Shown one piece after another: positions 5,570-31,471 of a DNA stretch of 64,000 bases. This DNA is from a bacterium OL-1. GTDB lineage: Bacteria; Actinomycetota; Coriobacteriia; Coriobacteriales; Atopobiaceae. Location: the NCBI GenBank assembly GCA_000752675.2, contig LM994627.1, positions 368,429 to 432,428 of the forward strand, given 5' to 3'. Positions within the stretch are counted from its first letter, which is position 1. Each line of letters begins with the position of its first letter. Position numbers and translations under genes: made by a program. A model generated the notes under the pieces. That model did no database searches. It worked only from the letters and a program-made list of their open reading frames with translations, and had not been told where the DNA came from.

Positions 5570-5596
5570 GACAAAGGGAAACTCCCTTTGTCTCAT
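5566..5596. repeat. Dispersed palindromic repeat, copy A
   Basis: A perfect 14-bp stem ATGAGACAAAGGGA (5566-5579) pairs with TCCCTTTGTCTCAT (5583-5596) over a 3-base loop. The preceding gene's TGA stop (5567-5569) is inside the left arm. Two more copies occur at 25405 and 31441. There is no T tract, so it is not a standard terminator, although the RNA hairpin could stabilise the upstream message 3' end. Confidence 0.9.
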
Positions 5597-24919: not shown

Positions 24920-25408
24920 ATGGCTGGTGAGCGTACCAATGTCATCTCGTGGGACGAGTTCTTCATGCGCGTTGCCATCGCGGCAAGCCTGAGGAGCAAG
25001 GACCCAAACACGCAGGTGGGAGCCTGTATCGCTGACACTAACCATAGGATCCTCTCCGTGGGCTACAACGGCACGCCCTCGGCTCTTGCCGACGCGGACT
25101 TCCCATGGGGGACCTCGAACGACCCGCTTCACGACAAGCACAGCTATGTAATTCACGCCGAGGCAAACGCCATCCTCAACTACCGCGGCTCGCTCAAGGA
25201 CATGGCGCACGCCACCGTCTACGTGACGCTCTTCCCGTGCCACGAGTGCGCGAAGACTCTCGTTCAGGCGGGCATCGGCGAGGTCGTCTACCTTGACGAC
25301 AAGTACGATGGCACCGAGGACAACCTCATCTCCAAGCATGTCCTCGACGAGTGCGGCGTGACGTACCGTCCCATCGGCATCGACCTCTCGGCCGCGTCGC
25401 AGCGATGA
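24920..25408 (+). CDS. Deoxycytidylate deaminase
   Basis: 162-residue zinc enzyme turning dCMP into dUMP for thymidylate synthesis (ComEB family). Zinc ligands are visible as HAE (His79, Glu81) and PCHEC (Cys107, Cys110). N-terminal SWDEFFMRVA and VGYNGTPS are family motifs. ATG 24920 follows AGGAAGGGGAG. The last codons CAG CGA TGA run directly into the palindromic repeat copy B, so the stop lies inside the repeat, exactly as in the ABC ATPase gene at 5566. Confidence 0.92.
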   Translation: MAGERTNVISWDEFFMRVAIAASLRSKDPNTQVGACIADTNHRILSVGYNGTPSALADADFPWGTSNDPLHDKHSYVIHAEANAILNYRGSLKDMAHATVYVTLFPCHECAKTLVQAGIGEVVYLDDKYDGTEDNLISKHVLDECGVTYRPIGIDLSAASQR

Positions 25409-25445
25409 GACAAAGGGACAGTCCCTTTGTCTCCTTTTGTCTCAC
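25405..25445. repeat. Dispersed palindromic repeat, copy B
   Basis: GAGACAAAGGGAC (25407-25419) pairs with GTCCCTTTGTCTC (25421-25433) and is followed by a second partial TTTTGTCTCAC (25435-25445). The preceding gene's TGA stop at 25406-25408 is inside it. The context CAGCGATGAGACAAAGGG is identical to copy A. Confidence 0.88.
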
Positions 25446-25560: not shown

Positions 25561-26676
25561 ATGGCTTCGATGAACGACAAGGACTACTACGCCATTCTCG
25601 GCGTCGACAAGGACGCCTCCGCAGAGGATATCCGCAAGGCCTTCCAGCAGAAGGCCCGCAAGCTTCACCCCGACGTCAACAAGGCGCCGGACGCAGAGGA
25701 GAAGTTCAAGGAGGTCTCGGAGGCCTACGCCGTCCTCTCTGACCCCGAGAAGCGCTCCCGCTACGACACCATGCATTCTGGCTCTCCGTTTGCCGGCGCA
25801 ACTGGCTCGGCCGGCTCTCCGTATGCCGGCGGCTACGGCGGCGGAGACCCCTTTGGCTGGGGCTTCCCCTTTGGCTCCAATGGCTATACGCGACGCACCT
25901 CGACCCGTGGCCGCTCTCGCTCGTACAACCCGCGCGTTGGCGCGGACGTTGTCTTTGACCTCACACTCGACGCCGCCACGGCTGAGAAGGGCGTCAAGCG
26001 GGGCGTCACTTACCAGCGCTACGCCGCATGCGAGGTGTGTCACGGCAAGGGTTCCGTCCAGGCGGAGCACTCTGAGACCTGCCCGACCTGCCACGGAACG
26101 GGTCGCATCTCCGTTGACCTTACCGGTCTCTTTGGCTTTGGCGTCATGGACATGGAGTGCCCCGAGTGCGAGGGAACCGGTCGCGTGGTGGTAGACCCCT
26201 GCGACGCATGTGGCGGCTCGGGGCGCGTGCTCACGGCGAGCGAGGTTGTGGTCAACGTTCCCGCAGGCACTCACGACGGCGACCTTATTCGCGTGAAGGG
26301 CATGGGCAACGCTGGAACCAACGGCTCGGCTGCCGGAGACTTTGTCTGCAGGGTCGTGGTCCCTGAGGAGCGCCTCAACCCCTACCAAGCCACTGGCTTC
26401 CAGATCCTTGGCTTTGACCTTCCGTTCCTAGTCTTTGGTGCGCTCTCTAACTCGCTTGCGGGGCTTCTCGTCTTCATCTTCGTTATTGCTGCGGTTGGCG
26501 TCGCGTTCATTGTGCGTGGCGGTGGGCTCAAGACCAACTCCCACTGGTGGAGAAACGCCCTGGCCTCTCTGGGTAACGGCGCCGCAAACGGACTCCTTAT
26601 CGCCCTGCTCATGGTCTCTATGTTCTCATGCACGGCTGCTGGTCCCGGAGTCCGGTACTACGGCTTCCTCTGGTAG
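25561..26676 (+). CDS. DnaJ-like cochaperone with C-terminal membrane segments
   Basis: 371 residues. A canonical J domain (about 7-70) has the Hsp70-activating HPD at 36-38, followed by a glycine-rich linker and four zinc-binding CxxCxGxG repeats beginning at 157, 174, 200 and 214. Only the first part of the substrate-binding domain is kept ([17 protein letters not shown]); from residue 286 the sequence becomes hydrophobic (about 286-318 and 340-360), so the second barrel and dimerisation region are replaced by membrane helices. Start ATG 25561 follows GCAGGAGACTT. A full DnaJ gene lies next door, so this is probably a membrane-targeted paralogue. I know of no named family with this layout. 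Confidence 0.85.
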
Positions 26677-26721: not shown

Positions 26722-26820
26722 TGCCTTTGGGTAGACAAGACCCTTGTACGCGTCGCTATGGCGGCGCCATGTCTGCAGGTTGGCCCCGGGGGTCGGGGCG
26801 GTTTTGGGAGTTTGGTGAGA

Positions 26821-28083
26821 GTGGAATCGAAGAGGGACTACTACGAGGTCCTTGGCGTGCCTCGTGACGCGGACGCAAAGACGATTAAGCGGGCATTTCT
26901 CAAGAAAGCACGGGTGCTCCACCCCGACGTCTCAGACGACCCCAACGCCGAGGAGAAGTTCAAGGAGGTCAACCAGGCCTACTCGGTCCTCTCCGACGAG
27001 CGCAAGCGTGCGAACTATGATCGCTATGGCGACGAGAACGGCCCTGCCGGCTTTGGCTCTGACTACGTCGACATGTCCGACATCTTCAATGGCTCGGGCT
27101 TTGGCATCAACGACATCTTCGACTCGTTCTTTGGTGGCGGCGCCTCTGGTGGCGCGGGCGCTCGCGCCGCTCGTACGCGCGGCCGTGACATGGGCATTCG
27201 CCTCACGGTCACCCTCGCCGAGGCTGCGGCTGGCGTCACCAAGACGCTCGCCTACGACCGCCTTGCCCCCTGTGACGACTGCGGCGGCACCGGCGTAGCC
27301 GAGGGTGGCCACGAGCGCACCTGCGACCGCTGCCACGGCACCGGTCGCGTCATCGAGGTCCAGCGCACCATCTTTGGCCAGATGCAGACCCAGACCACCT
27401 GCCCCGTGTGCCATGGCTCGGGCAAGGTCGTCGACAAGCCTTGCGAGACCTGCGAGGGCCAGGGTCGCACTCCCTCGCGTGAGACCGTCGAGGTCAAGGT
27501 GCCTGCCGGCGTCCACTCGGGCCAGACCATCCGCATAGCCGGCAAGGGCGAGGCGGGCGTGCGGGGCGATACCTCTGGTGACCTCGTTGTGAGCATCGAA
27601 GTCGCGCAGGACGAACGCTTCGAGCGCCAGGGCGACGACCTCTACACCACCGTGCGCGTGGACGCGCTCCAGGCAATCGTGGGCACTACGGTGACGGTCG
27701 ACGGCATCATGAAGGGCGAGCGCGTCAAGGTCGAGATTCCCGCGGGCTGCCAGTACGGCCAGCAGATCAAGGTGGAGCGCCGCGGCATGCCGCGCCAGGG
27801 CATGATCTCTCGCGGCAGCCTGATTGCCGTGGTGCAGGTGGTTGTCCCCACCGACCTCGACAAGCGCCAGCTGCTCGACATCGCAGGCATCGTCGCGGAG
27901 CGCACGCTTGGCGAGGAGGGCAACGCCCCCGAGGGCGAGACGCGCGCCGAGGAGGAGGGCGACTCTCCCGCCAAGGACGAGGAGGCCGAGCACCTTGCCG
28001 GCGAGCGCTGGACCGCACCCAAGAACCCCTTCAAGGACGCCAAGCGCAAGCCGCGCTCCCGCGGCAAAGGCGGTCGCAGGTGA
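26821..28083 (+). CDS. dnaJ: Chaperone protein DnaJ
   Basis: About 420-residue Hsp40. J domain with HPD at 34-36, glycine- and phenylalanine-rich linker, four zinc-binding repeats (CDDCGGTG, CDRCHGTG, CPVCHGSG, CETCEGQG), two substrate-binding barrels (VPAGVHSGQTIRIAGKGEAG, then DDLYTTVRVDALQAIVG) and an acidic/basic tail ending RGKGGRR. Two GTG codons, 26815 and 26821, fit the GGGAG at 26806; I use 26821, which gives the usual MxxKRDYYEVLGV start. Its TGA overlaps the next gene by four bases. No hrcA, grpE or dnaK is nearby. Confidence 0.92.
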   Translation: MESKRDYYEVLGVPRDADAKTIKRAFLKKARVLHPDVSDDPNAEEKFKEVNQAYSVLSDERKRANYDRYGDENGPAGFGSDYVDMSDIFNGSGFGINDIFDSFFGGGASGGAGARAARTRGRDMGIRLTVTLAEAAAGVTKTLAYDRLAPCDDCGGTGVAEGGHERTCDRCHGTGRVIEVQRTIFGQMQTQTTCPVCHGSGKVVDKPCETCEGQGRTPSRETVEVKVPAGVHSGQTIRIAGKGEAGVRGDTSGDLVVSIEVAQDERFERQGDDLYTTVRVDALQAIVGTTVTVDGIMKGERVKVEIPAGCQYGQQIKVERRGMPRQGMISRGSLIAVVQVVVPTDLDKRQLLDIAGIVAERTLGEEGNAPEGETRAEEEGDSPAKDEEAEHLAGERWTAPKNPFKDAKRKPRSRGKGGRR

Positions 28084-31440: not shown

Positions 31441-31471
31441 ATGAGACAAAGGGAAACTCCCTTTGTCTCAT
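31441..31471. repeat. Dispersed palindromic repeat, copy C
   Basis: Same 14-bp arms and AAC loop as copy A: ATGAGACAAAGGGA (31441-31454) and TCCCTTTGTCTCAT (31458-31471). It occupies almost all of the 45-base gap between dgkA and era, 13 bases before the era start codon. Confidence 0.92.

Follow-up and report, generated by a model that had tools for sequence, protein, structure and literature searches.

If a protein begins as a zinc-finger DnaJ and ends in hydrophobic segments, is its gene damaged, or does it encode a chaperone held at the membrane? The question is raised by an open frame at 25561..26676 of the window, the 64,000-nucleotide stretch of DNA analysed here. The frame has 371 codons plus a stop and lies on the forward strand, as do all the window's genes and domains located below. 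Its product of 371 residues, here called JM, is a zinc-finger J protein with a predicted membrane anchor and has 46 full-length relatives. The J domain (aa 8–69, 25582..25767; Pfam PF00226, E 1e-25) carries HPD at aa 36–38. It is followed by a linker rich in Gly, Phe and Trp (aa 76–124, 25786..25932). This linker is disordered in the AlphaFold model, for which 38 proteins from the window and the loci were aligned; it lacks the DIF motifs present in the paired DnaJ and becomes basic toward its end (aa 106–124, 4.0 K/R versus 0.1 D/E). Next comes the CTD-I beta-sandwich with its inserted zinc domain (aa 125–270, 25933..26370; Pfam, AlphaFold and PDB matches), the zinc domain itself, with four CxxCxGxG motifs, occupying aa 157–221 (26029..26223; Pfam PF00684 DnaJ_CXXCXGXG, E 6e-14). 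HPD is kept in all 86 relatives that cover the site, while seven of the eight zinc cysteines are found in 88 of 88 relatives and C200 in 87. The sequence-only reading, that the J domain and all four zinc motifs are intact, was therefore right.

Where does the likeness to DnaJ end? The Pfam family DnaJ_C is matched by JM over positions 3–76 of 152, and by the downstream DnaJ up to position 152. Against NCBIfam TIGR02349 (DnaJ_bact, cut-off 377.2 bits) JM scores 244.9 bits and the adjoining DnaJ 383.8. The second substrate barrel is thus gone, as had been proposed from the sequence, but the accompanying suggestion that only the first part of the C-terminal domain survives does not hold: the CTD-I strands run from aa 130 to 266 in the AlphaFold model and match solved CTD-I structures in the PDB comparison, so that this domain is whole. 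After aa 271 the model contains helices and no strands. The hydrophobic segments earlier placed at 286–318 and 340–360 do correspond to predicted membrane helices; their number, however, is three. Helix 1 (aa 274–295, 26380..26445) and helix 2 (aa 299–319, 26455..26517) are supported by AlphaFold and hydropathy, and the 286–318 stretch is modelled as a tight helical hairpin. A further AlphaFold helix (aa 327–359, 26539..26637) begins with an interfacial WWR part and continues as predicted transmembrane helix 3 up to the conserved C357. The mean pLDDT is 80–91 across most of the stretch from CTD-I to helix 3; the overall pTM is 0.48, because the disordered linker joins the domains. The absence from JM of CTD-II, the dimerization region with its helix and the soluble tail, with three predicted transmembrane helices instead, is well supported by these models.

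Could the unusual C-terminus be an artefact? The DnaJ similarity does end abruptly near aa 271, as a frameshift near 26400, an assembly error or a decaying dnaJ duplicate might cause, and the sequence-only reading had named a normal C-terminal domain in another frame as the sign of such a fault. Neither of the other forward frames contains a CTD-II between 26250 and 26830. Only 138 bases separate the JM stop from the likely start of the standard DnaJ, which lies directly downstream, as had been noticed (26815..28083 if it begins at the second of two possible start codons, 26758 and 26815; Pfam and NCBIfam find it canonical, CTD-II included beside CTD-I and the zinc domain). The same C-terminus recurs in 46 of 46 other loci and in 88 relatives. 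Measured against seven close relatives, dN/dS is 0.11–0.17 for the membrane part and 0.02–0.09 for CTD-I; the membrane part is under purifying selection. Over the 88 relatives E270, G284 and G340 are invariant, with G279 kept in 87, W329 in 86 and C357 in 85. The best 19-residue Kyte–Doolittle window reaches 2.3–2.9 in eight sampled JM proteins, versus at most 1.55 in some 58 canonical zinc DnaJ proteins, a contrast that, together with the selection on the membrane part, excludes chance or noise. Since frame and C-terminus are conserved, and no CTD-II lies in another frame or would fit the short interval before dnaJ, we rule the artefact out.

How might the three helices be arranged? Modelled by itself, the module forms the same three helices (mean pLDDT 84). 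Across the family the mean hydropathy of helix 2 is 2.45, while that of helices 1 and 3 is a moderate 1.6. A short turn without charged residues links helix 1 to helix 2, and the loop that leads on to helix 3 carries 3.9 K/R versus 0.9 D/E. This charge pattern agrees with the positive-inside rule if the J domain is cytoplasmic, as predicted. Membrane insertion and topology are predicted from the models: given the uncharged first turn, the basic second loop and the short tail, the chain would cross three times and leave its tail outside. The tail is mildly basic (average 1.3 K/R), a charge that suits an outside position imperfectly. The conserved Ser-Cys with which helix 3 ends might be read as lipobox-like; some members have K, T, N or A in place of the Ser, and one genus has no Cys. 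In genus g13 (L172, L173 and L196) JM is without C357 and has an extra hydrophobic segment with a basic end, so that its C-terminus may turn back toward the cytoplasm.

Does the module resemble anything known? With 24 members, the Pfam search for relatives gave no convincing match (best E 0.014, the window's own match falling below its cut-off); the PDB gave none by sequence, and Foldseek none at E ≤ 0.001. VIA-align returned weak aquaporin rows only (Z 5.4, rmsd 4.3–4.7, 94–95 aligned), which we read as a common helix arrangement and not as kinship.

How widely is JM distributed? The close-relative scan of 84,980 species genomes, by which alone the phyla beyond Actinomycetota were covered, gave 46 loci, all with the full architecture. 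A transmembrane-profile search of 396 genomes of the class found JM in 111 of 111 genomes of the window's family, Atopobiaceae. The profile also matched 61 genomes of a sister family, f3 (Coriobacteriaceae-type, Collinsella included), and two of a third family, f5, these figures being genomes matched and not shares of all f3 or f5 genomes. The remaining 19 matches were weak, and those opened were unrelated membrane proteins. The same was true of the candidate copies in f2, which we take to be the Eggerthellaceae-type family, where the profile matched at E about 0.003. In f2, 39 of 40 genomes have one zinc DnaJ above the cut-off, and the thirty read as loci are all canonical, with CTD-II complete and no hydrophobic segment. 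Among 396 genomes drawn across Actinomycetota, no JM was found outside the known families at E ≤ 0.001. The search across Coriobacteriia that the earlier reading had proposed thus shows the architecture and its dnaJ linkage to be conserved over whole families and absent from the Eggerthellaceae-type genomes sampled.

In all 46 loci JM precedes dnaJ in the same orientation, within about 300 bases of it in 43. Its neighbours, much alike across relatives, are lepA, dus, hemW, dnaJ, mtaB, phoH, ybeY, era and, in some genomes, hrcA. These are housekeeping genes, similar in every relative, and no tie was seen to the window's secreted hydrolases, which had been offered as possible clients. Between a deaminase gene and JM a pattern scan, the only evidence here, finds a terminator-like hairpin (25407..25433, +). 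It holds one copy (25409–25431) of the inverted repeat GACAAAGGGANNNTCCCTTTGTC, which is dispersed, with further window copies at 5570–5592 and 31445–31467 and 57 copies in the 2.46-Mb genome (the reversed control pattern gave 0).

What does the gene order say about the origin of JM? An hrcA-like gene stands between JM and dnaJ in L021 and L039, two of the three loci with a longer interval, and also in L198, and genome G098 has the order hemW–JM–hrcA–dnaJ–mtaB; JM is linked to hrcA–dnaJ in early-branching members. In f2 genomes hrcA–dnaJ and mtaB lie close together. HrcA is found in f2 and in other orders, and among the listed f1 genomes in only two, both of genus g6; it was not found in the window's own genome. 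These arrangements suggest an ancestral cluster hemW–JM–hrcA–dnaJ–mtaB. Most simply, JM would have come to lie ahead of an hrcA–dnaJ unit, and most lines would have lost hrcA afterwards. In L021, L039 and L198 hrcA stands between the two genes, while HrcA was not found in most of the genomes listed for the family; lines with JM seem to have altered their control of the heat-shock response. Even with 3 or 4 mismatches allowed, no HAIR or CIRCE heat-shock operator was found in the vicinity of JM or of the dnaK operon. In a tree of the part from the J domain to CTD-I, JM forms one clade (100/100) inside a Coriobacteriia group (97/92). The best tree, weakly supported at this point (92/74), has it outside a group of DnaJ and Eggerthellaceae, and the alternative clade of JM with the paired DnaJ, a simple sister-pair duplication, is not rejected (p-AU 0.23). 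In genome G297 (L076 and L085) JM is followed by a second JM bearing a DnaJ N-terminus and then by DnaJ, the product either of unequal recombination at a shared 17-residue stretch or of an assembly fault.

To which class of J protein, then, does JM belong? Class A is defined by a J domain with HPD, a Gly/Phe region, a zinc finger in CTD-I, CTD-II and a dimerization domain (PMC8215388, PMC12799103, PMC13254874). JM has the N-terminal HPD J domain and the zinc-finger domain inserted in CTD-I, and its linker is Gly/Phe-rich, the DIF motifs missing. It lacks CTD-II and the C-terminal dimerization domain, and falls below the TIGR02349 cut-off. Because these two missing domains are both defining, we do not file JM as class A. 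By descent it nevertheless belongs there: it has the J domain, the linker, CTD-I and the four CxxCxGxG motifs in common with DnaJ of TIGR02349, and common descent is clear, whereas it differs from DnaJ in having neither CTD-II, dimerization domain, soluble tail nor DIF motifs and in its three predicted transmembrane helices. Class B, which has no zinc finger, is excluded by the zinc domain, and class C, whose members have the J domain alone in common with DnaJ, by the shared linker, CTD-I and zinc domain.

A duplication of class A gave actinobacteria a second DnaJ, DnaJ2 or DnaJ2B, of which DnaJ2B lost the zinc finger (PMC12799103). JM retains the zinc finger and has lost CTD-II instead, and among the actinobacterial DnaJ sampled it groups in the tree with those of Coriobacteriia. 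The type III J protein DjlA of E. coli corresponds to class C (PMC8215388). Against the NCBIfam cut-off of 162 for DjlA, JM scores 14.6 bits, in a match confined to part of the J domain. DjlA is membrane-anchored and works with DnaK; it has an N-terminal transmembrane segment and a C-terminal J domain, and neither zinc domain nor CTD. The likeness is one of working, a J domain tethered to the membrane, and the domain order of JM is the reverse. Yeast Ydj1 and human DNAJA1/2 are farnesylated class A zinc-finger proteins held to the membrane by the C-terminus; their anchor is a lipid, and they retain both the dimer and CTD-II, whereas JM has helices in the place of CTD-II. Sec63, a class C J protein of the ER translocon with several transmembrane helices, brings Hsp70 to a membrane site; it offers a working model only, its domains and their order being unrelated to those of JM, with no zinc finger or CTD. 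The literature searched holds no bacterial protein of the order J–G/F–CTD-I(Zn)–TM, although an earlier mention is possible outside that search, for example in the J-protein survey of Barriot et al. 2020. JM fits none of the classes A, B and C, and is a lineage-conserved DnaJ variant apparently undescribed in the literature searched.

With which Hsp70 might JM work? The genome encodes one full-length DnaK, in a cluster of dnaK, grpE, a CbpA-like gene and a MerR/HspR-like regulator, and three J proteins in all, so that this DnaK has only three candidate J partners, JM among them. A second, weak match to the HSP70 family (38 bits) lies in a 413-residue open frame outside the window (contig C10:563338-563637, minus strand). 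The literature lends indirect support to a role at the membrane: J proteins determine where Hsp70 acts and target it to clients (PMC8215388), and DnaK/DnaJ of E. coli limits the aggregation of membrane proteins mislocalized to the cytosol (PMC6794478). From sequence and models we consider it probable, at somewhat better than even odds, that JM derives from class A and is a membrane-tethered J protein that recruits DnaK to membrane or exported clients. Such recruitment, which the sequence-only reading had proposed, would be the most natural role for the protein; the partnership with DnaK, the dependence of recruitment on location and the clients are what we infer.

On this account a zinc-finger class A DnaJ would have lost CTD-II and the dimerization region and gained a three-helix anchor. 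The J domain, the flexible linker and the zinc-bearing CTD-I would lie on the cytoplasmic side, since DnaK must be reached, with the helices crossing three times, the basic loop inside and the short tail outside. In this way the inner face of the membrane would hold both a site that binds clients and a J domain that activates DnaK, and DnaK would be loaded there onto membrane proteins, nascent or mis-inserted, or onto precursors of exported proteins. Client capture, through CTD-I and the zinc domain and without the dimer clamp of DnaJ, would be weak, with hand-over to DnaK at the membrane; the cytosol would be left to the soluble adjoining DnaJ and to the CbpA-like protein encoded in the dnaK operon. 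The missing DIF motifs suggest an altered DnaK-control step. Because JM lacks both these motifs and the dimer clamp, its chaperone activity cannot be assumed.

Might the helices do something other than anchor? They could bind one partner, SecYEG, YidC or FtsH, much as Sec63 binds the translocon of eukaryotes, and JM serve that machine only. The conserved residues G279, G284, P288, F289, WW329–330, G340 and C357, which are not simply hydrophobic, resemble a binding surface rather than a plain anchor, but the same residues could serve helix packing, and JM is not linked to any sec, yidC or ftsH gene; we regard such docking as unlikely. By analogy JM might also be a bacterial counterpart of Sec63, its conserved three-helix module docking on the Sec translocon or YidC and loading DnaK onto inserting or exported polypeptides. 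We think this unlikely as well; if true, DnaK would belong permanently to the pathway of membrane proteins in JM-bearing Coriobacteriia.

Nor need the main output be folding. J proteins can act in heat-shock control, and the order JM–hrcA–dnaJ in L021, L039 and G098 would suit a membrane stress sensor, one that acts by titration of DnaK or that, while the ancestral cluster was intact, had an influence on HrcA. Yet JM is conserved though hrcA has gone from most JM genomes, the window's included, and regulation as the main role seems distinctly improbable. Very improbable, in our judgement, is that the C-terminal helices stay out of the membrane and pack instead into a soluble helical domain, or serve CTD-I as an internal mimic of its substrates. 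The Gly- and Ala-rich helices 1 and 3, of moderate hydropathy, would allow it; the strongly hydrophobic helix 2, the uncharged first turn and the clustering of charge between helices 2 and 3 are instead like those of membrane proteins.

What does the membrane-tethered reading of JM mean for these bacteria? Bacterial class A DnaJ is described as highly conserved and of uniform size (PMC7609799), and CTD1, CTD2 and the dimerization domain are its standard parts (PMC12799103). Two gut families, relatives of Collinsella and Olsenella among them, keep a second zinc DnaJ with a predicted membrane module in place of the CTD-II and dimerization part. Automatic annotation may well label it plain DnaJ and so hide it. 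JM makes it possible to see, in a natural variant, which parts of DnaJ client capture needs, and is a lead to what may be a membrane branch of the bacterial DnaK system.
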